Below are positions 12,301 through 61,990 of a stretch of DNA of 64,000 nt, piece after piece. A program made the translations under genes and the position numbers. Each line of letters begins with the position of its first letter. Within the stretch, counting starts at the first letter, position 1. The notes beneath the pieces were generated by a model, which was not told the origin of the DNA, did not search any database, and saw only the letters and a list, made by a program, of their open reading frames with translations. Source of the DNA: Diplonema papillatum (taxonomy: Eukaryota > Euglenozoa > Diplonemea > Diplonemida > Diplonemidae); NCBI GenBank assembly GCA_030068145.1, contig JAPJBO010000056.1:62001-126000 (forward strand). The letters are read 5' to 3'.

Positions 12301-15300
12301 TACTTCATTGAACCCTGACGTAGAATCCTGGTTCTAAGTGGGCCACTTCTGGTAAGCAGGACTGGCGACGCGGGATGAACCGAGAGCTGACTTAAGGTGT
12401 CCGAGTGATCGCTCATCAGATCCCACAAAGGGTGTCGGTTCATCTTGACAGCAGGACGGTGGCCATGGAAGTCGGCATCCGATAATGAGTGTGTAACAAC
12501 TCAGCTGCCGAATGCACCGGTCCCGAAACTGGATGATGCTGAAGCGATCCACCCATAGTTGGCCGCGTACTGGTATCACAAGCCAGGCGTGCGTAGGAGT
12601 GCGTGGTCCACGCCGCGAAGTCGTTGGCGTGAGCCTCGATGGAGCGTGGATGAGTGCAGATCTTGGTTGTAGTAGCGAATATTCAATGGAGAACATTGAA
12701 GGCCGAAGTGGAGAAGGTTTCCGTGTCAACAGCAATTGGACATGGGCAAGGTGTAATTGCTCGCCTCAAAGCTGCCACTGACGAGCTTGCTCGGACGTGC
12801 GGGATTGCCGAAAGGGAATGCGTGAACATTCCGCAACCCGGATGCAGAGATCTGAAGTGGTGACACATTGACGATCCTGTTGACCATGTCCGCAGGCCCC
12901 GGATGATGCAGTAATTATCGGATTCAGTATCGTTTCATCGGCCGTTAACGGCCTATCAGCGGAAACATGATGCAACATCGGCCTCTCATCCGAATGCAGG
13001 GATCTTGAGCAGAAGAAATGCGTAGTTTTGTTTTATTCTTTTACTTGTTAGTTGTCGACAACTTTTTTTGTATTGAGAAATTCTTACCGGCCTGTGGAAG
13101 AGAGGCACCGCCGGTAAGTCGGCGTTACACTCTGGAAAGGGGTTTCCTTGAGTCCGGGGTCGGCATGCTGCCAGTTTTCCTGAGCCGGAGCGGGTACAAT
13201 CTCGCTCAACATCCATAAGTTTTTTCTGGATTTGTGTTTCCAGCGATATTCGCTCCGTCGGTTGCATGTGACGACGTTCTTTGGGCTGTTTGTCAGGTAT
13301 TAGTTTGCTTACAAAGCTGCTGCTCTGCTGCGTGGGTCTGCGGTTCAATGCGGACAGATGACGGAGTTGCGGGCTGATACGTGAGCGGCTGTTCATGGCG
13401 CATGGCGACTTTTATTTGATTTGGCGGGCCGCCCCAGAGAAGTAGCTAGGCCCAAAATTCTGCAAGGGGAGCCCTGCCAAATGTGGGAATACATGAGTCG
13501 GTGCTCAGACCGAGCGGAATGGACCCTCTACGCATTCCGTTTCGTCGCCATGCTCAAGAGGCACCTACTGGGGGGGCCCAAATACAATAGGTACCCAAAT
13601 ACAATATTATTTCGGAATACAATAGGTACGCTGAAATGGGGGTTTCGTTGAGCATTGTTTCGGAATACAATATTATTTGTCCCCAGTGGGGTTTTGCAGG
13701 GGGTTCCACGGGCTTCCCTCGCGAGAGCAGCTTCTTTTTCGAGAGAAGTTCAATGTGGATGAATCCCACTACTTGATTTCGCTATCTGTGGCATTTTCCT
13801 CAGGTCAGGGATCAATAATTCCTAAGGCCCGCACCCAAGCAAAAGTAAATGGCCCGCTTTTTTTTAGCCCGTGGTCCACCACACCCACATGTGATGCTGA
13901 GGGTGCTGGTTCGATTCCTCGGCGGAGTGGTTTTCCAAAGTCTGAAATGCCATCTGGGGGCCAGATTTTTGGCCACATCGAGTGTAGAAAAGGTGCCATA
14001 CATGCCGGGGGGTAGCTCTTTCCACCCCACAAAATATTTGCCAAATTTTCTCCAATGTTGACCTGCAAGTGCCTGCAGCCAGACTATCAGCATCCAGACT
14101 GTTTGAAAACCCTGTTTTCTCTATCCTTCCCCTCCAAATACAATATTATACCTATTGTATTTGGGCCCCCCCAGTAGTGGCAGTGCTTGCAGCACTAGGA
14201 CTCGGGCATCTTGCCAGTCAGAGGCCTGCTCGGGATGTACGGACATAATGTGCAAGGAAAACACAACGGGTTTGCGCATTGGGAGGTGGTCCCAGACTAT
14301 TTACAGTTCTTTGCATTTTCAACTGTTTATCAGAGTTGATGCCTAAGCTCTCCGAAACCGCTAATACAAACAGTCAGCGACGAGGGTCATGTCCGCCGCC
14401 AGTCATCTGACTCTCCCTCCTTCAAGCCCTCCCCATGTGAAACTGAGCAAAGTCTTGTCACGAGGGGCTTTCTCCCTGATGGGTGATACGGTGGACCACA
14501 AGCTGCAATCGGCAATCGTTGTGTTGCACCACCTCGGTCTATCGGAGCCCCTAGTTCCTCGTAGTTGAGACCTGATCAGTATTACTCCGGGAACCGCAGA
14601 GGTGGGACCTCCCTTACCACTAACTGCTAATTCTGTTGGGCCTTTGTCCATAAGGGCGTCGGGGTCAGGCTAGATTCGGGGGCTTGGAATGGGTATGTGC
14701 TCAACACCGCACTGGTCCCGTCTGCGCCGTGTTTCGGTCCTTTGAGCCACGGACACAAAAAGCGGACCATCATCAGCGCGGAACCTGAGTGTCTGCAGAC
14801 AGGACAGCGGTGTGAGTCTGGTTTGCCAGGCGGGGCGGGGCCGTCAAGCCGAAGGCTGGAATAAAAAAATGGGCGTACCGGGTTGATGTTCTTGTACGGC
14901 TCCTTTTGGAAGAAGTCCGAGATCATGACTTGCACTTTTCGCATTTTGCACGACCCGCCAACGAGAACCACGTCGTTGATTTCCTCGGGCTTGACCTTCG
15001 ACTCCCGGAGCACTTGCTGCAGTGTCTCCAGCGCTTTTTTGAAGAGATCCTTGCACAGGACTTCGAACTTTGCCCGCGTGATCCGCATTTCGTAGTTGCC
15101 GTCTGCGAATCCGTCGAGCTCCATGCGCACCTCGGCGTTGTCGGAGAGGTTCTCCTTGGTCTCCTTGCACGCTTTCCGCAAACGTTGCATGTCGTAAGGC
15201 GATATGTCGCCGAGTCCCCACTCCTTGAGGAAGTGCTCCATCAGTCGGTCGTCAAAGTCATCACCACCTAAATGCGAGTCACCGCCTGTCGCCTTCACGA

Positions 15301-18300
15301 CGAAGTCCCCGTTGCTCTTCACCTGCATGACGGTCACGTCGAACGTACCACCGCCCAAGTCGAAGATGCAGATGACCTTCTCTTTGCCCTGGTCGGACAT
15401 CAACCCGTACGCCAGTGCCGCGGCGGTGGGCTCGTTGATGATGCTGCGAACGTTCAGGCCGGCAATTCGCCCGGCGGTACGGGTGGCCTCGCGCTGGATG
15501 GAGTTGAAATACGCCGGCACTGTGATGACCGCGTCCGTGACTTCGACTCGGAGCGTGTCCGACGCCATCCCCTTCAGCTCCGACAGAATGGCAGCCCCGA
15601 TTTGCTCGGGGGTTTGGATCAACTTCCCATTCGGACCTTCCACCTCAAACGCCGGCTTGTCGAGGTGGTTGATGACTTTGAACGGCAGCTTTTGCTTCGT
15701 CATTTCGACGGCTGTGCGGTGGGCAAAGAGTTTTGTTGAGTGTTTCGAAAGTAGTTCGTGAGTAGTACTCTTTGCAGGGTCGGGGGGGGGGAGGGGACTT
15801 AGCTTAATGTTTAGGCAGGACACTGCCTCTCATGCATGTTTGATGCTAGCATCAAGTCTTCTTCGAGGAATATGTTGTCAAGGAAAGGGATGCAAAATAG
15901 AAAGAGGTAAAAAGGGGAGTGTACGGCTCCCAAAGTGGGGTGAGAAACCTTGAGGGACTAGCCCCCTGTGTTTTTTCACCGCGGTGTTGTGTGCACCTCG
16001 TTCTTCGTCTCAGGGTTCGCTCTTGAACGCAGACCAATCCAAAGTCGAGGGGGGAATGCAAGAACGTGCTTGGAATGGGTATGTGCTCAACACCGCACTG
16101 GTCCCGTCTGCGCCGTGTTTCGGTCCTTTAAGCCACGGACACATAGGCGGACCATCATCAGCGTGGAACCTGAGTGTCTGCAGACAGGACTGCGGTGTGA
16201 GTCTGGTTTGTCAGGCGGCTGTTCTCCAAAGTCGAGGGGGGAAGGGGGGATTGCAAGAACGTGCTTGGAAAATATACGCGCTCAGCACCGCCCTGGTTCC
16301 GTCTGCGCCGGTCCTCATGCCAGCCGGACACAGAAAGGCTGATCATCATCAGCGCGGAAAGTGGCGGTTTGTCAGGCGGCTGTTCGCAGCTCGTCACAGC
16401 CAAGACCACCCGTGCTACTAGAGCGCAGGCAAATCCGTCACGGGGGAAGGTTCTTGCAACCGTGTCTGAGCAATCAGTTAAAAAACTCAGGGCCGCCGCG
16501 CTGATTGTGACTGTGGATCGTCAGACCGCACTGACGTGTCGTCTTCGTGTGGCGATATGCGAAGTAAACTCCGAAGAGCACAGTTGTTCAAATAACGAGA
16601 TCTGAGGCCGGCCCTGTCTGTGCGCACCTGAGCGGGGCTCCTTGTTGTGGTGTGTGTGCGTGAGGCGGCGTGAAGGAACGATCCATCCACAAACCTTTCG
16701 CGGCGACAGTCATACTCCCACGAGAGCAATAGAACAACAAAAGGCGAAGCAAAACCTGCCCCCTGCGCCTGCTGTCCCTGACTGCAGGCAGTTCGACACA
16801 CTGATGTACTACATATGTGCAGTCTTTCGTCACAGAATGCTGCTGCATATCAAGTTCAAATTACTGTTACTACCGGGGCAGCAGGACGGGCTGATGTCCA
16901 TAACGGTAGACAAATCTAAGTGTTTGCCCATAACGGTATACTCGCCCACGTTTTTGCCCATAACGGTATGAAAATCGAAGTTTTTGCCCATAACGGTATG
17001 GAAATCGAAGTTTTTGCCCATAACGGTATGGAAATCGTAGTTTTTGCCTAACGGTATGGAAATCGAAGTTTTTGTCCATAACGGTGCACGGATGTGAAGT
17101 TTTTGCCCAAACCGGTTTTGAGACCAAAAAAAATGAGCCGCACCAAAAAACGGCCTGACCCATTTTGAATTATGCAGAAATTCCTTCGACCCCCCAGACC
17201 AGTTCGATTCAGCCACACCGGAACGTACGAGGGTTCTGGACCGGGGTCTGGCTGGGTTCACACCGGTGCCGTTGACGCGTTCGGGCGGCTCTGCTGGGAG
17301 TAACTGGAAGGCAGGTTGATGTAATGGGTGGACCGTGCGTTGCCCAACGGTCACGTACGTATAGGCCGTTATGGGCGAAAACTAAGAACTTCATACCTTT
17401 ATGGGCAAAAACTTAGGTATATACCGTTATGGGCAGAAACTTAGGTATATGCCGTTTTGGGCAAAAACTTGCGACTCTACCGTTATGGGCAAAACCTTAG
17501 ACTTGTCTACCGCTATGGGCAAAACTTGGAACTTCATACCTTTATGGGCAAAAACTTAGCGACCATACCGTTATGGGCAGAAACTTAGGTATATACCGTT
17601 ATGGGCAGAAACTTAGGTATATACCGTTATGGGCAGAAACTTAGGTATATACCGTTATGGGCAAAAACTTAGGTATATACCGTTATGGGCAAAACCTTAG
17701 ACTTGTCTACCGTTATGGGCAAAACTTGGAACTTCATACCTTTATGGGCAAAAACTTAGCGACCATACCGTTATGGGCAGAAACTTAGGTTTATACCGTT
17801 ATGGGCAAAACTTGGAACTTCATACCTTTATGGGCAAAAACTTAGCGACCATACCGTTATGGGCAGAAACTTAGGTATATACCGTTATGGGCAAAAACTT
17901 GCGACTCTACCGTTATGGGCAAAACCTTAGACTTGTCTACCGTTATGGGCAAAACTTGGAACTTCATACCTTTATGGGCAAAAACTTAGCGACCATACCG
18001 TTATGGGCAGAAACTTAGGTATATACCGTTATGGGCAGAAACTTAGGTATATACCGTTATGGGCAGAAACTTAGGTATATGCCGTTATGGGCAGAAACTT
18101 AGGTATATACCGTTATGGGCAGAAACTTAGGTATATGCCGTTTTGGGCAGAAACTTAGGTATATACCGTTATGGGCAGAAACTTAGGTATACACCGTTAT
18201 GGGCAAAAACTTGCGACTCTACCGTTATGGGCAAAACCTTAGACTTGTCTACCGTTATGGGCAAAACTTGGAACTTCATACCTTTATGGGCAAAAACTTA

Positions 18301-29914: not shown

Positions 29915-30080
29915 GCTGCCTTGTGCAAACAATACAACTACAAAATGGGTCTTTTTTGTTGAACGCTTACGCCCGCCACTAAACCCAGATTTACCTGTGT
30001 TTCGTGTGGGCTACAGCACATTTACCTCCTTTGATCTTTTGCAACTGGCAGCCTCCTCAAGTATTTCCTACAAAGCAGGT
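29915..30080 (+). repeat. Dispersed repeat; uninterrupted (empty-site) copy for the 6.3-kb transposon
   Basis: The sequence from AAACAATACAACTACAAAAT to AAGCAGGTGCTTATACAAAA is the complement of 53,195-53,353 joined to 59,681-59,700. At 29,931-29,957 it reads straight through the point where the 53,354-59,680 element is inserted. A third diverged copy is at 32,280-32,440. Confidence 0.85.
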
Positions 30081-30089
30081 GCTTATACA

Positions 30090-31150
30090 AAAAAAAATAT
30101 GGATGCGGGCGTAGATGATGATCCGGAAGAACCGCGCAACTTTTTTTTTTTCAGAGTGAAAAAAGTTCGTTTTTGGTTGTTTATCGAATCGGCGAAGAAG
30201 CGGGTCTGATGGCAAAGACAAAGGCGCCACGGTGCGTTTGATGGTGGAAGCTCCAGAAGGGACATGAAGCCGCTCCGATGCTCCAATGAACACTCGTCAG
30301 CAGCGCAGCTCTCCCTGAGCCGCGAACGTTCGACCGTTGAATGTGTAAACGTCTGACCTTTCACGCTTTGGTCCCTTATGCGGCGCGCCGGGGGGGGGTC
30401 AAAACGCCCCTTAGGGGTTTCGAGCTTTTGACGCGCCGTGTGGCACTAACACCACCGCAACAGGCCTCCATCATGGTGCACGAAAGCAAGGCTGCCACAG
30501 GAAGTCTGGGTGGTCGATGCCTGGCAGGAAAAGCTTGCATGAGAATAGCCGCAGCTATGGCCGAGCACCACGTTCTTTGTTTTTGGAGAGAGTGAGAGAG
30601 AGAAAGAGTGTGTGTGTGCGCGTGTGCGGGGTGGGGCCTGCATTGAATGTGCCCCCCTTTCGCGGGCAGCGCACACAGGCCCACTGGGGAGGAGGTCCCA
30701 CCAGCACCCCGCCAGCCAGCGGAAATGCGATCGCCGGTGACTGTCACCCCTTTGTGTTAGCAACGCCTACCGGACGGCCACTCGGTGGATGGGAGGGAGG
30801 AGCTCAGCAATAAGGAGAGGTAAGTGGCGCGAATCAATTTGCCGCCAGTCCTGCAGCCTGCCACCCCTGCGCTCGCCTGTATCTGTGTGCGGGTGTATGT
30901 ATATGGGGCCAGTTTTTTTATGTGCCGCCCTCCTTTTCGCGGGTGGCGCACACAGGCTCGCCCGGGAGGCTGCCCGCGGCCCACCGTGTATCTCGTCGCC
31001 CGGCAGAAAAATATGCAAAATGCCGGCGACTGCCTCCGTTCTCGCGTCTCCCCCCGCGACGGCGACTCGCCCCTGCCGCACGGAGGGGCGCCGAAATTAG
31101 GAAGAGGTGGCGCGAGCAACACTTGTGTCGCAATACTCACTCAAGACTGC
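30090..31150. other. No recognisable gene
   Basis: Two similar blocks (30,650-30,720 and 30,925-30,990, TTTCGCGGGY(G)GCGCACAC AGGC) suggest an internal duplication. A GAGAGAGAAAGAGTGTGTGTG microsatellite lies at 30,592-30,620. Nothing else is supported. Confidence 0.45.
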
Positions 31151-53194: not shown

Positions 53195-53353
53195 CTACTC
53201 TTTTTGTATAAGCACCTGCTTTGTAGGAAACGCTTGAGGAGACTGCCAGTTGCGATAGATCAAAGGAGGTAAATGTGCTGTAGCCCACACGAAACACAGG
53301 TCTTCTGGGTTTAGTGGCGTGCGTAAGCGTTCAACAAAAAAGACCCACTTTGT
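53195..53353 (-). repeat. Dispersed repeat, left half, split by the transposon
   Basis: Complement of 29,960-30,075. The missing right half resumes at 59,681 (TTTGTAGTTGTATTGTTTTC). Confidence 0.85.
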
Positions 53354-53559
53354 TGGTGTGATCGGTATAGCCATGGGGTACTACGGGGGAACTACGGGGA
53401 ACTGGCCTTGGGGTGTCCTTCTTTTTTTTGGTGGTACTTGAGGGGCATAGGTCTCATGTTTCCCTCAGACTGCGGGGGCTTTGGAGTTAGTTAAAGGGTT
53501 TGGGGCTTTTTGGGGGTGTTGGTGGACAGGGGCGCCAGGGGTCTTCAAACCGGCGCGTT

Positions 53560-53965
53560 TAAATTTAGGGAAAACGACAAAGTGGATTCTATATAACTGG
53601 ATTACGACAAAGTGGATTATAATCCACTTTGTCGCCAATCCACTTTGTCGCCTAATCCACTTTGTCGCCCCGTATGACGGACCTAAGCTCACTTTTGATG
53701 GTTTCATTGAACTCAAACAGCTCAAAATAGTCACTTTCCCTGTGGGAACTTTTTGTGAAAGGGTCCCCCTATATAATTCATGCCGGTTGTCAGAAGCGAC
53801 AAAGTGGATTATCAAAAGCGACAAAGTGGATTATTACTGGATTATAATCCACTAATAATCCACTTTGTCGCGACAAAGTGGAATAATCCAATTTGTCTCG
53901 ACAAAGTGGATTATGAATCCGTTTCCAGTTATATAGAATCCGTTTTGTCGTTGACCCTAAATTTA
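53560..53965. mobile_element. 406-bp nested MITE rich in CGACAAAGTGGATTA
   Basis: Terminal TAAATTTAGGG (53,560-53,570) and CCCTAAATTTA (53,955-53,965), with paired subterminal CTATATAACTGGA / TCCAGTTATATAG. The interior carries about ten copies of CGACAAAGTGGATTA in both orientations. Confidence 0.8.
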
Positions 53966-53966
53966 A

Positions 53967-54017
53967 CAGAGAAGCATTGCATAATAAAGCTAGACAGCTT
54001 TATGAAATGCTTCTCTG
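53967..54017. repeat. 51-bp double hairpin
   Basis: CAGAGAAGCAT / ATGCTTCTCTG arms enclose a second stem ATAAAGCT / AGCTTTAT. Immediately next to the MITE and 140 bp before ORF1; a structural element of unknown role. Confidence 0.7.
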
Positions 54018-54153
54018 TGTTCTAACATCTGCTGCTGTAGCCTAAACGAAATGTGACCCCAATACGATGCAATCGCCTTACAGGTGACTTTTGCATCCGG
54101 AATCTCAAGCGAGCTCGAACTCTAAATAAAGCGCAAATCATCTCTCTCGTAAA

Positions 54154-55107
54154 ATGATCGTTTCCATTGAACTGGCTACAAAAGAAAGTACCCAAATAAA
54201 GGCACGAAACAAAATTCAAAAGCGTAAAATGCAATTCTGTATCGGCGTTACGTTTCACTGCTTTACGAAATATCTCCAAGTCCGCACGACGGAAGAGCGT
54301 GAGGAGAACGACAACAGCGAGACCGAAGAAAGCGACACCATCGACCTGAAGGAAGAAGACATGAAGTACAACGCCGACTTTATGACTAACGGCTCGCTGC
54401 AAACGTTCCACGAGTCCACAATACGGCCGCACCTGCTGGAATGCGGAAACCAGCTTGCAGAAAAGAAAGACGCTCCTTTCCTTAGGGGGGCTACCGGTGT
54501 CGCACGTCGCTGGTTTTATAAGGAGCGCGACGACGAGACGGAAGTGCTCAACGACGCGGGACTACAAAAGGTCGTCGAAAAGAAGTTGAACCTCCATATA
54601 GTGGTCCGTTTGGAGCTGAAAAAGCACTCGGCAAAGCACGTCCGAAAGCACCTGCTAACACACGACGCGGAAGTGCACGACAACTCATACACATCGCGGG
54701 CGGACAGTAGCTCGATGATTACGAACAAGTTGGAGGAGGCGCTGTGTGACAGGTTCGGCAAGGTGGGGCTGAAGTTCGGACCCTCTTGGGTGCTTTGTAT
54801 TTGTGGCACAAAGGTCAGCAACCCGCCGGACAGGCTTTCTGACGGGACGTCGTTTGTACGACACGGTTGTCGATGCCCGAAGTTCGCCAAGAAGCTGTCA
54901 AAGAACGCGAAAGCAGACCTAAAAGCTTTCAGAGAAAAAGAAGCTGCTAAAAATAAGAAGAAGGTGGCGGCCAGGAAGGATCTCACAAGGGGCATGTCCG
55001 AACAAGAAAAGGCCAACGCCAAAAAGATGTTTGAAATGGTTGGCTTCAAACGAAAGGCAGACGAGGAAGCAGAGGTCGAGAACCCACGCAAAGAGGCAAA
55101 AATCTAG
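54154..55107 (+). CDS. Transposon ORF1: basic protein with CxC...HxCxC motif
   Basis: 317 residues from ATG 54,154. Composition: N-terminal basic stretch, acidic patch (TEEREENDNSETEESDTIDL), a central region without recognised fold, a Cys cluster (LCICGTKVSNP ... RHGCRCPKF: C-x-C and H-x-C-x-C, about 20 residues apart) that could bind zinc, and a long Lys-rich helical tail (KNKKKVAARKDL; KRKADEEAEVENPRKEAKI) that looks DNA-binding or nuclear. No family recognised. It lies in the same orientation 210 bp upstream of ORF2; the TTTGTTGCAG at about 55,320-55,329 could be an acceptor that fuses the two. Confidence 0.65.
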   Translation: MIVSIELATKESTQIKARNKIQKRKMQFCIGVTFHCFTKYLQVRTTEEREENDNSETEESDTIDLKEEDMKYNADFMTNGSLQTFHESTIRPHLLECGNQLAEKKDAPFLRGATGVARRWFYKERDDETEVLNDAGLQKVVEKKLNLHIVVRLELKKHSAKHVRKHLLTHDAEVHDNSYTSRADSSSMITNKLEEALCDRFGKVGLKFGPSWVLCICGTKVSNPPDRLSDGTSFVRHGCRCPKFAKKLSKNAKADLKAFREKEAAKNKKKVAARKDLTRGMSEQEKANAKKMFEMVGFKRKADEEAEVENPRKEAKI

Positions 55108-55373
55108 CTTTCTGGTGATAGCCTCCATCGTAAAGGCATTTCTTTTTTTGTGTGTTCCCGACGATCAATTATAGTTTTTTGTTGTCTCAATTCTCTTTTG
55201 TTCTGGATGTCCATTGGAAGCGACGGCCTGTCTATCCGGCGGCAACTCGGGTATTCGACTAGCTGACGAAGAGAAATTAACGTTTGTAATGTCGGTGTGT
55301 TCAAAACCAATGCAGGGGTTTGTTGCAGGAAAAGGAACGAGAGCGAGTCAGGAAAGCCTGGAACAACGGGGAG

Positions 55374-57680
55374 ATGAAGATTGACGTTACTTTCGTGAAG
55401 CCGTGTGGAATGCGCCATGAAGGTTTTCTCGTCGAGAATGCTGACTGGAACGCTATCGTAGGACTTGCGAAGTCGGTTGGCTACGCGCTTGCTGGGACAT
55501 ATGTGCGCCTCGCTACCGGCCCCCCTTCAACAGTTTGTCTGGCCGACTGTCCTGTTGTTCTCAAGGAGGACTTGTGGAAGCTCAGTTGCGGCCATTGCGT
55601 GCTTGTACCAGTCCTCGACAAGAATCGCGCTGTGGTGACGGACGGCGGAGGCCTGGCCGACGGAGAACTGCGAGGTATCGTAGACAGCCTGATGGCGGAA
55701 GATGTCAAGATCCGACGCATACCCCGGGTACTCCTCATTATCCAGCGAGTAAAAGTGAGTCGTTTCAGGGTTGAGCGAGCATGGCAGAGCAACCTGGTTG
55801 CGCGTGATATCTCGTTTTTGTGTGCCATCGAAGACAAGGATGTCGCCTTGCAGCACGATAGCACACCTGTTAACGAGAATTGGCATGCAATCCACTTGAC
55901 AGCAACTTGGATGCAAGGAACATCACAAAGGCACCATTTCCTGAAGGCGTGCCTTTCAACCGTGCACGATGGCAGCATGGTGGAAGACGCAGTGACAGAA
56001 ATCTGTTGCTACTTCTCGTCTCTCACGCAAGAACTTCGAGGGCTTGGCGTTCTCGGCCCTGATGCCTTTTTCGAGCAAGACCGCTTCTGCTGTATGTTTA
56101 CGGACCGCGGAGCAGGTGTGGGGGGCCTCAAACAACCCCGGGTATACGAACCAGTGCACAGGTTGCATCGGACGATGAGCAGGGTTGTGACCGAGCTCAA
56201 GATTGGGAAGGAGATGACGTTCCTGTGTGCAGCAGCGAACGACGTGGCATCTTCACCTGCATTTGCTGTATGGCTGCGGGAACAGGGCGGCCCGGAGTTG
56301 AAAGGTGTGTTGTGGCAGAGGGCGACGACAGGGAGATTCGGAACGTCCTGGGCAGCCGCGTGGTCTCTATCATGCACCGTTGGTCAGAAGACCCTATTGG
56401 GATGGTACTTGGACTTCCTCGGCAGCTTTGATGAAACGACAGAGTATTCGAAAAAAAAGAAGAATATCGTCATGTACCTGACTCCTCGTGGTACCCAGGA
56501 GCGCTTCCGTCGAATAGGTTTAGCATTTGAGATCATTGCATATCCGGCGTTGAGGCGAATCTGGCAGTACGCTGGGGAAGAAGTACTCGACGACGACTTT
56601 ACTGCCGGCTTTGCCAGCGATTTGATGGCTACCCTGGGTCTCTATTTCACAAAAATTCGAACTGGAAAGGACATTTTCGGGAATCCGCTGTGGATGGAAA
56701 AAGCGAGACGAGGTGTGACATTTCCTACGAAGGCCCCGGAAGTAAAGTTTGTGTGCCAGCGGAACTCCGTTCAGCAGTTCATTCGGCGTATGAAAGCCCA
56801 CTTAGACGCGGCTGGCTCTATTGCGAGCTATTACGGAGGTCCCGGCGTGCAGATGCCAACCATTAAACCCATAGACGAGGCAACAGATTCAGCTTTCCTG
56901 TCTTCTGTTGCCCACAGGTTTGCCTGCGGCATTGTTGCAGAGCTGACCATGTACAGCAAGGCAACAGCGGATACCCCAAGACCCGTAAAGCTAGGACCGA
57001 GTCTCATAGAGGGCACCGTTGGATCCATGAAACGTCACCTGCAACAGCAGACAAACACGCGCATCCGCGATGAATGCATCAGGGCAAAGCTATCGAGCAC
57101 CAACGCTCACCTGAGCATTCACCAGCCCTACCCAAAGACAATTCAGCAATATGCTGCGCAAAGGATAGAAACTATCCAGGCGAGGAAAGACCGATGCGGT
57201 TTGCTGAAGTTGACCCACTACAAGGCGAAGCAAGTTTCTCATGACGACAGGAAAAAGTGGCAGGCAGAACGCAATGACTTCATCAAAAGGATTCCTTGGC
57301 GATTCGATGCAGACAGTCATTGGCGAAAGGATGCGCTTGTGCAGCAAGCTGAACGGCGAGGTATCAAGTCCTGCCAAAACTGGAGCAAAGACAAGCTTGT
57401 GTCTGCATGTCAGGAAGCTGATGAGAAGTTGCTTCTTGACGAGCTAAAACAGCACGCCCTTGCCCGAAGCATGCGATTCCGGGCTAATGTTGTTGCTGGC
57501 AAGTTGCTCCATGACCTGGAACAGAAGGATGCAAAAACCGAAGAACCCGAGGCTTTGCCGCGTCCGAGGTCTCCCTCCCGGCAGCGAAAGAAGCAACCCC
57601 AAGAAGACGAGCCCCCCCTGAAAAAGGTGCGCTTCGAGACAGCTAATAGCGAGGATAGTGAAAGCAGCGAGGAGATGTAG
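55374..57680 (+). CDS. Transposon ORF2: candidate transposase, unassigned family
   Basis: 768 residues from the first in-frame ATG (55,374); the open frame extends back to 55,320. The length and the context (only large protein of a TIR element) make it the likely transposase. No D-D-E/D triad can be assigned by eye; candidate acidic blocks are CMFTDRGAG, LGWYLDFLGSFDE and GEEVLDDDF, with a hAT-like but unproven TGRFGTSWAAAW motif. The C-terminal part has a SAP/HeH-like helix-loop-helix (HWRKDALVQQAERRGI, then NWSKDKLVSACQEAD), suited to DNA binding, and ends in a basic then acidic tail (RSPSRQRKKQP; SEDSESSEEM). No stop or frameshift, so possibly recently active. Confidence 0.7.
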   Translation: MKIDVTFVKPCGMRHEGFLVENADWNAIVGLAKSVGYALAGTYVRLATGPPSTVCLADCPVVLKEDLWKLSCGHCVLVPVLDKNRAVVTDGGGLADGELRGIVDSLMAEDVKIRRIPRVLLIIQRVKVSRFRVERAWQSNLVARDISFLCAIEDKDVALQHDSTPVNENWHAIHLTATWMQGTSQRHHFLKACLSTVHDGSMVEDAVTEICCYFSSLTQELRGLGVLGPDAFFEQDRFCCMFTDRGAGVGGLKQPRVYEPVHRLHRTMSRVVTELKIGKEMTFLCAAANDVASSPAFAVWLREQGGPELKGVLWQRATTGRFGTSWAAAWSLSCTVGQKTLLGWYLDFLGSFDETTEYSKKKKNIVMYLTPRGTQERFRRIGLAFEIIAYPALRRIWQYAGEEVLDDDFTAGFASDLMATLGLYFTKIRTGKDIFGNPLWMEKARRGVTFPTKAPEVKFVCQRNSVQQFIRRMKAHLDAAGSIASYYGGPGVQMPTIKPIDEATDSAFLSSVAHRFACGIVAELTMYSKATADTPRPVKLGPSLIEGTVGSMKRHLQQQTNTRIRDECIRAKLSSTNAHLSIHQPYPKTIQQYAAQRIETIQARKDRCGLLKLTHYKAKQVSHDDRKKWQAERNDFIKRIPWRFDADSHWRKDALVQQAERRGIKSCQNWSKDKLVSACQEADEKLLLDELKQHALARSMRFRANVVAGKLLHDLEQKDAKTEEPEALPRPRSPSRQRKKQPQEDEPPLKKVRFETANSEDSESSEEM

Positions 57681-57994
57681 CGCAGAAACGTCACAGGTTT
57701 GCAGACTGGGTTATTTCATCAAGATGTTGGAACCGTTTGACCGTCGAGATCCCACAAATTTCGCTTTCCAATTTCCGGAGGACGTGTGCCGTCTTGTTTT
57801 TTGATCGTTTTATTTTGTTTTTACGCAGTGTCTTCTTCTTCATCCTCTTGGCTTTCCGACCTTCGTGGGCCAAATATCATCAGAATTGTCCACATTGTGT
57901 GACAGAAAGGTGCAAAGTCGCTAGGAAGTGCTCACCAAGATCAAGAATCACAGCCCTGAAGTACTCAGCAAAAACTGAAAAAGCAAAAAAAAAA
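57681..57994 (+). other. 3' region of transposon ORF2
   Basis: AT-rich sequence after the stop, no further gene. Ends at a nested palindromic element. Confidence 0.4.
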
Positions 57995-59606
57995 GGGTAA
58001 GGTGCCTTAGGGGACTAGTCCCAATGTGAAATGTGCCCTTAGGGGACTAGTCCCACTTGGAAATTGTTACCTTGACTTTTGTCAGGGAAATGCACTTTGC
58101 AGATTTTGAGCAAATTTTGGAAATTTTCATTTTTTCCAGATTTTTGCAGATTTTGGCAGATTATGGCCATTTTTGCCCAGTTTTGCCGATTTTTCCAGAT
58201 TTTGGCCGATTTTTCCAGATTTTGGCCATTTTTGGCCATTCTTGCCGATTTTTCCAGATTTTGGCCGATTTTGCCGATTTTTCCAGATTTTGACCATTTT
58301 TGGCCATTTTTGCCGATTTTTCCAGATTTTGGCCGATTTTGCCGATTTTTCCAGATTTTGGCCATTTTTGGCCATTTTTGCCGATTTTTCCAGATTTTCC
58401 AGATTTTGACCATTTTTGGCCATTTTTGCCGATTTTTCCAGATTTTCCAGATTTTGACCATTTTTGGCCATTTTTGCCGATTTTTCCAGATTTGGGCCAA
58501 TTTTGCCGATTTTTCCAGATTTTGGCCAATTTTGCCGATTTTTCCAGATTTTGGCCAATTTTGCCGATTTTTCCAGATTTTTCCAGATTTTTCCAGATTT
58601 TGGCCATTTTCGGCCATTTTTGCCGATTTTTGGGGACTAGTCCCACTTGGAAATTGTTACCTTGACTTTTTACTTAGCAGATTTTGAGCAAATTTTGGAA
58701 ATTTTCATCTTTTCCACATTTTTGCAGATTTTGGCAGATTTTGGCCATTTTTGCCCATTTTTGCCGATTTTTGGCTTTTTGGAAGCTGCAAACGTCCAAT
58801 ACAAACTGGACAATACGGCAAACTCGGCCAAAATGGCCAAAATCTGGAACAATCGGCAAAAATGGTCAACATCTGGAAAATCTATAAAAATCGGCAAAAA
58901 TGGCCAAAAATGACCAAAAATGGCCAAATTCTGGAAAAATCAGCAAAAATGGCCAAAATCTGGAAAATGGCAAAAATGGCCGAAAATGGCCAAAAATGGT
59001 CAAAATCTGGAAAATCTGGAAAGATCGGCAAAAATATGCCAAAATCTGGAAAAATCGGCAAAAATGGCCAAACATGGTCAAAATCTGCAAAATCTGGAAA
59101 AATCGGCAAAAATGGCCAAAAATGACCAAAAATGGTCAAAATCTGAAAAATCTGGAAAAATCGGCAAAATTGGCCAAAAATGGCCAAAATCTGGAAAATC
59201 TGGAAAAATCTGGAAAAATCGGCAAAAATGGCCAAAAATGACCAAAAATGGTCAAAATCTGGAAAATCTGGAAAAATCGGCAAAATTGGCCAAAATGTGG
59301 AAAAATCGGCCAAAATGGCCAAAATCTGCCAAAATGTGGCAAAATCGGCCAAAATGGGCCAAAATCCGAAAAATCCGAAAAATCTGAAAATTTCCGAAAA
59401 CTTGCTAAAATTTTGCTAAGTACATTTCCCTGGCAAAAAGTCCAATGAAATTGTTTGCCCTTAGGGGACTTTTTCATTGGGAAGTACTGGGAAATGCACT
59501 TAGCAACTTTTTTGCAAATTCTTACCAGGAATTGTAATGCAAAATAGGGACTAGTCCCCTAAGGGCACATTTCACATTGGGACTAGTCCCCTAAGGCACT
59601 TTTCCC
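57995..59606. mobile_element. 1.6-kb palindromic element with satellite arms
   Basis: Terminal GGTGCCTTAGGGGACTAG... at 58,001 is mirrored by CTAGTCCCCTAAGGCAC ending at 59,599. CCTTAGGGGACTAGTCCC recurs several times. Left arm 58,100-58,640 is (TTTGCCGATTTTTCCAGATT + TTGGCCA)n; right arm 58,840-59,390 is its complement. The centre near 58,800 has a short unique segment. No gene; the frames (NRQKWPK... or FPDFGHF...) are array artefacts. Confidence 0.8.
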
Positions 59607-59754
59607 AAAAAAAAAACGACACCCCCCCCCCTGGTTGAACTACGGGGGAACTACGGGGAACTGGCCCACCGACCACACCATTTGTAGTTGTATTGTTTTC
59701 TCCCCCTCTAGCCTCCTTCGAAATGAGCACAAGGCAGTCCCTCGAGTATTTTCG

Positions 59755-60573
59755 CTACGGTATCCCCTCGTCCCAAAGAATACCCACGGGGGCGCATACC
59801 ATCGTCACGCCCCAGCCCCTGTAGAGGCCGCTCCACCCCTGCTCTCGGTAGATTTGTTTGAACGTGGCGGAGAACGATTGCGCGTCGCTGCCGCGCATGC
59901 GCGACCCGACGACGTCGGCGGGGAAGAACGCCGACCAGTACGCGCACCCGCCGAAGGCGCCGGACAGCGCGATGTACGCAGGGTGCAGCTCCTCTTTTTT
60001 GACGCCCTTCATCGAGCAGAAGATCTTGCAGAACATCTCGTACCCGCCGTACCACGCGGCGTTCCCGGGGATTTCGCGCAGCAGCATCGAGCTGTGCCCT
60101 TTGAACAGCGAAGCCACGCCGCCTGTGCGCACCGTGTCGACAGCGCAGTGCACGAAGTTGCGGTACTTCGCGCCCTGCAGCTGCATCAGGCACTTCACCC
60201 GCTCGACGGGCGACAGCACGTGTGCAACTGCCACCCCGCTGCAGCTCCCGCAGAGGGAAAGTTGAAGGAGGGACAGCTGCTCACCCTCCTTCACCCCGCA
60301 GTAGTTCCGCATGGTGCGCTGGGCGAGGCCGTACGCCCAGAAGAGCGTAGCGTTCTCTGCCATGGCGCCCGCGATGGGCGAGCCGACGCCCCTGTATATC
60401 CCGCGGACGCCGCCTTCGGCGAACGTCGACTTCAGGCAGTGCAGCGCGCCGGTGTACTTGCCGGTGACGTCGGTGTGCAGCCGCACCTTGACCGTGTCGA
60501 ACGGGTACTCGATCAGCTTCGAGCACATGCCGCTGATCGTGCCGGCCGCGACATCTTTAATGGCCGCGTCCAT
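59755..60573 (-). CDS. Mitochondrial carrier family (SLC25) protein
   Basis: 272 residues from the ATG at 60,573 (MDAAIKDVAAGTISGMCSKL), which places the first repeat at the usual distance. Three tandem carrier repeats with P-x-(D/E)-x-x-(K/R) signatures: PFDTVKVR (repeat 1), PVERVKCL (repeat 2), PADVVGSR (repeat 3, R position shifted). GIYRGVGSPIAGAMAENATL, LFKGHSSMLLREIPGNAAWY and GLYRGWGVTM are the companion motifs. The G-M-x-S-K-x-x-E-Y-P-F-D-T-V-K-V-R segment is most like ornithine/basic amino acid carriers; substrate remains an inference. The C-terminus (APVGILWDEGIP) is slightly short of the family norm, so a last exon may be missed. It lies 75 bp from the transposon end. Confidence 0.88.
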   Translation of the reverse strand: MDAAIKDVAAGTISGMCSKLIEYPFDTVKVRLHTDVTGKYTGALHCLKSTFAEGGVRGIYRGVGSPIAGAMAENATLFWAYGLAQRTMRNYCGVKEGEQLSLLQLSLCGSCSGVAVAHVLSPVERVKCLMQLQGAKYRNFVHCAVDTVRTGGVASLFKGHSSMLLREIPGNAAWYGGYEMFCKIFCSMKGVKKEELHPAYIALSGAFGGCAYWSAFFPADVVGSRMRGSDAQSFSATFKQIYREQGWSGLYRGWGVTMVCAPVGILWDEGIP

Positions 60574-61990
60574 GTGAGCAACGGGCGGGGGGTGTGTGGG
60601 TGGGGAAAAGTTCTTGCCCTCCCGCTGCCTCTTTCCCCCTCTGGCCCGGCTGCAAAAAGCCCGCGCAAAGCGGTGATTCTGAGATTGCAAGGAGTGGAAC
60701 CCAAATGGAAGTTAAGAGGGCGCCCGAGTCGCATCCGAAAAGCGGGCGTTGTCACCCCGAAAGCTGGAGGAGGGACAGCTGCTTGCCCTCCTTCACCCCG
60801 CAGTAGTTCCGCATGGTGCGCTGGGCGAGGCCATCTCGTCATGGCAACAATCCACGCTGTAGGTGGTATGTGTATACCATACCTACGTACTGTGTAGCAG
60901 CGTAGCATGTACACCGAGGTGTGTATACACAACCACGAGGACGCAGTAGCATGCTATGTATCTACATACGTAGGTGTATGTATACCATACGTAGTACCCT
61001 GTAGTACTACGTTGTATGCTAGCGGATTCGGGCAGAGCCCAAGCCAGCGATCTTTGCACTGCCACATTCTCATTCAAACCGGGTCGACTCGCGTTGAAAC
61101 CATAATTACGCAGTGCAGCTTGCATCGATCCATGGTAGTCATCACGCTGCTAGCTGAGGATAGTGGGGGGGAGCCACATGGTACGCTGGCGCAGCCCTGA
61201 CCGTAAACGTGCTGGGAAAGGCAAGTCACAACAAGCAACGCAGGCGGCTCAGGCATGTCGTCTGGCAAGGATGGAGGATAGGAACCGACGCGAGAACAGC
61301 AAAAGGGAGGAGGGCGGAAGTCGAAACCCCACTGTCCAGCAGGGACGCGCGGCCCTTTACGGGCCCGCGCTCCGTTTTTGGTTCTTAAGATCTTTGAACG
61401 GACCTCCGAATTCGACGGTACTGCCGCCCGGGTTCAGCTGCGGCAGCCTACTTTTGTTTCGCGAAAGCGCAACAGAAAGCGGCGGAGAAAGGTGTAGATA
61501 TAGCGCCGCCGCGGGGGTATAAAGATGCTAGGGGGGGGGTTCTAGAAGATTTGGTTCACGTAGCGAAAAGCTGGTATAGTGTGGTACTCATTTGCATGCA
61601 ATGACTCCCCACTAACGCAACAAGACGACGAAGATTCGCGATCTTTTATGAGACGTTTGGATGGAGGTATACTTTCCGTACTGGGTTGGACCCGGTCAGA
61701 GGGGTTCACAACTATTCCATCGACAGCATTTTGAGCGTTCCCGTCGAATAGTAGAGCCCAAAGGTCATATGGTCAAGGGTAACACAACTGCACGTAGTTG
61801 ACCAGTGGATGTCGTCGGAGCTGTCATCTTAGGTACATCGAGCATAGACACACCACCATCTTCCGCCAAGCATCCGAGAACTGTCGGAACAGAGTGTGCT
61901 TTGGTTGATGTGCTTCTTGGCCTGCGAGTATTAGGTGACCATGCCTTCTCGAACGCACCGCTGCGAGTTGGTCTGTGCGCCTGGAGCGAG
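60574..61990. other. Intergenic; carrier fragment and palindrome-rich block
   Basis: 60,765-60,832 is a near-identical copy of 60,266-60,340 of the carrier gene. 60,855-61,020 is full of GTATACATAC-type palindromes (GTGTATACCATACCTACGTA, CATACGTAGGTGTATG). 61,530-61,800 shows nothing. Confidence 0.55.

Follow-up and report, generated by a model that had tools for sequence, protein, structure and literature searches.

A probable young autonomous two-gene DNA transposon of unplaced lineage in Diplonema papillatum

The window analysed here, a stretch of 64,000 nucleotides corresponding to bases 62001-126000 of contig 56 of the Diplonema papillatum assembly, contains at positions 53354-59680 an element of 6,327 bp. 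We read it, with a probability of roughly 0.7, as a copy of a young autonomous two-gene DNA transposon of an unplaced lineage, in which ORF2 would be an RNase H-fold DDE transposase (D162, D244 and E546) and ORF1 its partner. The element has defined ends and a 5-bp target site duplication (TSD), inserts in a recurrent target pattern, has amplified recently and shares its architecture with two related families in the same genome.

Ends, target sites and copies of the element

The ends of the element and the site used as an empty-site control are as follows.

53349..53353, no strand: left TSD, TTTGT, from the sequence and the copy census
53354..53366, forward strand: 5′ terminal inverted repeat (TIR), TGGTGTGATCGGT, with the same start in matches to a 301-bp 5′-end query
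59668..59680, reverse strand: 3′ TIR, ACCGACCACACCA
59681..59685, no strand: right TSD, TTTGT
29927..30093, reverse strand: unoccupied copy of a dispersed repeat, the empty-site control

The two TIRs agree as an inverted repeat at 12 of 13 positions and are flanked by TTTGT on each side, as expected of the true ends and 5-bp TSD proposed in an earlier note on this DNA. The same note had pointed to an unsplit copy of the surrounding repeat, and the two flanks, when fused via a single TTTGT, do match positions 30093-29927 of the minus strand at 94% over 167 bp, spanning the junction; this control is a different copy of the dispersed repeat and not a vacated donor site. By eye, a reverse-strand ORF at 59755-60690, the end of which lies about 75 bp from the element, has the look of a mitochondrial carrier, and another at 14627-15823 (reverse strand) resembles part of Hsp70.

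Copies elsewhere in the 271-Mb assembly, the comparison that the earlier note had proposed, have the same TIRs with 5-bp TSDs. The census comprises 38 rows including the window, of which 36 have both ends (C121b and C339a are without the 5′ end); among the 29 non-window loci L010-L038, C487, C112, C175 and C224 were left out because the 5′ TIR was outside the fetched piece, the 3′ TIR was not found or the contig ended. The TSD is exactly 5 bp in 31/36 copies and 6 bp in one (C185), and in the other four (C103, C243, C272 and C3) one additional base lies between the 5-bp TSD and the element end, where the cut could have been made one base outside the end. Because identical ends with 5-bp TSDs recur at other loci, those of the window copy are not due to chance, and TIRs with a TSD of fixed length in independent copies are a feature of the DDE cut-and-paste class. 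The target sites also share a pattern: at positions 6-12 bp from the TSD, the left side is 69% A and the right side 70% T (30 sites), and the bias persists (67% and 70%) after removal of five sites in one shared repeat. The A-left/T-right fraction of 0.690 compares with a best value of 0.305 among 2,000 random sets of window sites. The same dispersed repeat hosts 6 of the 36 insertions.

Copy numbers were estimated with 5′-end, ORF1 and ORF2 queries, of which only the best candidates were scored, so that the counts are lower bounds. All of the 40 best candidates scored with the 301-bp 5′-end query match at full length and 99-100% identity; ORF2 gave at least 57 intact matches near 100% (from 1,562 first-look candidates), every scored one being open, and the ORF1 query produced at least 126 match rows, with full-length matches at 100% in 92. 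A comparison of 30 copies across 3,527 bp, spanning ORF1 through the end of ORF2, shows 25 of them to be identical to the letter; two, one being the window copy, have a two-base difference in common, and the remaining three are distinguished by indels or larger changes. This identity, together with the intact ORFs, bears out the recent activity that had been suggested from the window alone. Older relatives with frame damage are also present in the genome. In one locus, L060 (C679:106300-111000), a deletion fuses ORF1 and ORF2 into a single open frame of 913 codons.

The abundance of identical copies might also be produced if the element spread by copying, without being cut out, via another enzyme chemistry that leaves the same 5-bp TSD, and no excision footprint was seen, the empty site compared being a paralogous repeat copy. 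However, short TIRs with fixed 5-bp TSDs are usual for cut-and-paste elements, and no replication or polymerase gene was recognised in the profile searches; spread by copying is therefore considered improbable.

The earlier note had described a complete transposon of 6.3 kb. The transposon stands, but that size does not apply to the family: the distance from the ORF2 stop to the 3′ terminus is 367-372 bp in 28 of 30 loci (the exceptions are the window copy and L020) and, combined with the 5′-end positions, gives a standard copy of 4,656 bp. Aligned with the standard copy L012, the window copy carries an extra 1.62 kb between 57985 and 59607, inside an A-run. The 3′-end positions and this alignment exclude 6.3 kb as the family size; the window copy reaches 6.33 kb because a foldback repeat of about 1.6 kb sits near its 3′ end, making it a 4.66-kb element with a nested insertion.

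57995..59606, no strand: nested foldback repeat in the A-run, where its edges are ambiguous; missing from the aligned standard copy

The nested repeat is built of tandem arrays and is 74% self-complementary over 1,458 aligned columns. Its ends bear GGGACTAGTCCC, and its tandem CCAGATTTTGGCCATTTTTGCCGATTTTT-like arrays run in opposing orientations; about nine A residues were noted by eye as a possible TSD.

The two proteins and their relatives

Both ORFs are open, in agreement with the description of them as uninterrupted, and the features used below are listed here.

54154..55107, forward strand: ORF1, 317 aa; families A-C all retain its C-x-C...H...C motif
55374..57680, forward strand: ORF2, 768 aa, its ATG chosen by alignment with family B
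55857..55859, forward strand: D162 of ORF2, candidate catalytic residue, invariant, at the end of predicted strand 1
56103..56105, forward strand: D244 of ORF2, candidate catalytic residue, invariant, after predicted strand 4 in the first model
57009..57011, forward strand: E546 of ORF2, candidate catalytic residue, invariant, in a predicted helix past a helical insertion

The ORF2 frame is open farther upstream, with a TTG start listed at 55320. The ORF1 motif, read by eye, is possibly a zinc-binding one. A weak ORF1 match (29%) led to a second family, B, which contains ORF1 and an ORF2 that is 36% identical, in the same order, and a search with the family B ORF2 led to a third, C; a search with a family C protein revealed no further, more distant family among the matches scored. 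Across the three families in this genome, ORF2 identity is 36-57%. The L109 row in the ORF1 alignment does not represent ORF1, and L111, with its diverging C-terminus, was left out of alignment A4. In both ORFs, differences between families are smallest at codon positions 1 and 2 (0.33, 0.26 and 0.65 at positions 1, 2 and 3 for ORF2 between C1 and C2; 0.40, 0.32 and 0.70 for ORF1 between C1 and C3), as expected for proteins under selection; dS is saturated.

A single capture of two host genes by an unrelated non-autonomous element, as the origin of the ORFs, would fit the lack of any database match to a transposase. It is contradicted by three diverged families, in each of which ends of this kind enclose both ORFs in the same order, and it was rejected as extremely improbable.

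No matches to ORF1 or ORF2 were found in Pfam, NCBIfam, PHROGs or the PDB sequences. For ORF2, the Pfam and NCBIfam searches, run to E 10 with the A and B proteins and to E 1 with A2 members, gave only weak, unrelated matches; one ORF2 family member had a weak SAP match (E 0.13). The ORF2 proteins of A and B and alignment A2 had no match among the best 8,000 candidates by shared words in a protein collection, and scans of viral and prokaryote contigs gave none. The inability of the earlier note to name a superfamily thus holds against these profile and sequence sets, for the protein collection among the best candidates.

The assignment of ORF2 relies on conserved residues and predicted structure. 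Invariant positions in the family alignments include D162, D244, H262, H265, W314 and E546; an H-R-x-H-R motif follows D244, and an invariant L-W-Q-R-A lies within the insertion. The two structure models have mean pLDDT values of 39.7 (first) and 52.4 (second, pTM 0.34), and residues 141-262 and 521-605 are modelled below pLDDT 50; the second model is fair only at residues 1-80, with a beta-grasp order, and at the helical residues 620-725. In both models the strand ending in D162 precedes two more strands and a helix, and a long helical stretch leads up to the helix that holds E546; strand 4, ahead of D244, is formed in the first model and not in the second. The predicted order, with a low-confidence core, is strand-strand-strand-helix-(strand)-helix, a helical insertion and a helix with E. 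Since the three invariant acids occur in the predicted RNase H order with a helical insertion, ORF2 is probably a DDE transposase, and its helical C-terminal domain may bind DNA. The spacing of the triad (82 between the two D residues and 302 from D to E) and its order resemble those of insertion-bearing transposases, a likeness that serves as a lead and not as a test.

Subterminal repeats and architecture of the three families

Inside the TIRs, the element carries the following modules.

53380..53407, forward strand: 5′ copy of a 28-bp direct repeat, with two ACTACGG units of period about 11 bp plus AACTGG; conserved in families B and C
59639..59666, forward strand: 3′ copy of the 28-bp repeat, in the same orientation as the 5′ copy
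53410..53417, forward strand: GGGGTGTC module, inverted relative to 59618-59625
59618..59625, reverse strand: GACACCCC module, the inverse of 53410-53417
53559..53966, no strand: 5′ internal region rich in GACAAAGTGGATT palindromes, its outer 43-nt arms 91% complementary

That a 28-bp segment is direct and not inverted had been remarked upon before, and the 28-mer is indeed exact at both ends; shuffling the mononucleotides 200 times gave direct matches no longer than 9, and inverted matches between the element's two ends reach 10 at most. An accident of a single copy is ruled out, as the array recurs in families B and C, and the direct repeat is therefore a trait of the lineage. The GACAAAGTGGATT palindrome cluster, absent from the single family B element read, is perhaps an older insertion. 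Several standard copies are without 50 bp of this cluster.

Families A, B and C are alike in gene order, TIRs, 5-bp TSD and end arrays with a period of about 11 bp, which run in one direction at both ends and are based on ACTACGG in A and B and on ACAAACCCGGC in C. The ends of B and C have TGGTGTG(A/G)TC termini and carry an inverted GGGGTGTC-like module with a T-tract. Nine B and C copies were tested for the TSD: it is exactly 5 bp in six (L104, L106, L112, L102/L116, L107/L114 and L111/L115) and has one mismatch in L059, and no matching duplication was found in the other two (L105/L113 and L103/L117); L108 and L110 yielded no 3′ end that could be used. With a length of 2.6-2.7 kb and a 5′ terminus about 370 bp ahead of the ORF2 match, some B relatives have no space for ORF1.

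Placement among superfamilies and a model of transposition

Eukaryotic DNA transposons are sorted into approximately two dozen superfamilies. Those of Repbase are listed in PMC4455052. A literature search by the letters of the termini gave no related element, and no published element with this combination of features was found in the literature searched, in which journal coverage was incomplete.

The best known home for the element, should profile similarity appear later, remains hAT5, and one could suppose that it is a very divergent hAT member of this kind. The 5-bp TSD fits hAT5 only, the usual hAT duplication being 8 bp (hAT5 is described as hAT with 5-bp TSDs in PMC12730594). The RNase H fold of hAT transposases carries an insertion, and these enzymes feature a C-x-x-H motif as well as a conserved tryptophan close to the active site (PMC8230255, PMC4763223), to which the probable fold of ORF2, its H-R-x-H-R past the second D and its L-W-Q-R-A may be compared, and hAT ends bear repeated subterminal sites (PMC4763223, PMC3143072), as do the ends described here. 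On the other hand, no sequence similarity of ORF2 to hAT5 was detected in the searches above, and neither the hAT C-terminal domain nor another hAT family was found in the Pfam scans that gave no match at the thresholds above. To our knowledge, TGGTGTGATC termini are not of the hAT type. The element also differs in its two conserved ORFs and in arrays of the same orientation at both ends, and a hAT origin, while worth keeping in mind, is judged unlikely.

Transib shares a TSD of 5 bp with the element and, as a RAG1-like group, the insertion-bearing RNase H fold that is predicted here; its termini are CACWATG, whereas the ends read here are TGGTGTGATC and start with TGGTGTG. P elements, with THAP9, and KDZ (Zisupton) have an RNase H fold that a helical insertion interrupts, as predicted for ORF2, but the TSD of P is 8 bp. 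A fold split in this way is common to the P and RAG1-like transposases, the P triad being D230, D303 and E531 (PMC8230255). Zisupton has 8-bp TSDs as opposed to the 5 bp found here, and the CMCT groups listed have 2-3 bp TSDs or CAC ends (PMC12730594). With no sequence or profile match to any of these in the searches above, a divergent member of Transib/CMCT, P or KDZ/Zisupton appears quite unlikely. PIF/Harbinger is alike in pairing a transposase with a second protein of a DNA-binding type, but its TSDs are 3 bp (or 0-2 bp), the range for Harbinger relatives being 0-3 bp (PMC12730594) as against 5 bp here, and ORF1 has no Myb/SANT match in Pfam.

The profile and sequence searches above and the published descriptions placed the lineage in no known superfamily. 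We give about even odds to a new superfamily-level DDE lineage. It would be defined by two conserved genes, one for a transposase with a beta-grasp-like N-terminal domain and one for a partner bearing a zinc motif, by TGGTGTGATC termini, and by 5-bp TSDs at targets between A- and T-tracts; its TIRs would face inward, whereas its helically phased repeats, spaced about 11 bp, would share one direction at both ends. Subterminal repeats, their binding and insertion domains have been described for other elements (PMC4763223, PMC3143072, PMC8230255). In the model that we favour for this autonomous element, ORF2 is most likely an RNase H-fold DDE transposase that combines a long helical insertion with a beta-grasp-ordered N-terminal domain and a helical C-terminal domain, and ORF1, which has a possible zinc-binding motif, would act as its partner. 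The transposase, or perhaps ORF1, would recognise the TGGTGTGATC termini and the tandem sites of about 11-bp period, which have the same orientation at both ends. The element would then be cut out of the donor, presumably with ORF2 as the catalyst, and joined to both target strands with a 5-bp stagger, where an A-tract flanks one side of the target and a T-tract the opposite side.

Because so many copies agree to the letter and keep their genes intact, the element is likely to be active and is directly testable. If the reading as a new lineage is true, synapsis has to accommodate arrays of both orientations, one of each, and an additional superfamily with two genes and an unusual layout of its end sites would represent a separate solution to the pairing of two transposon ends.
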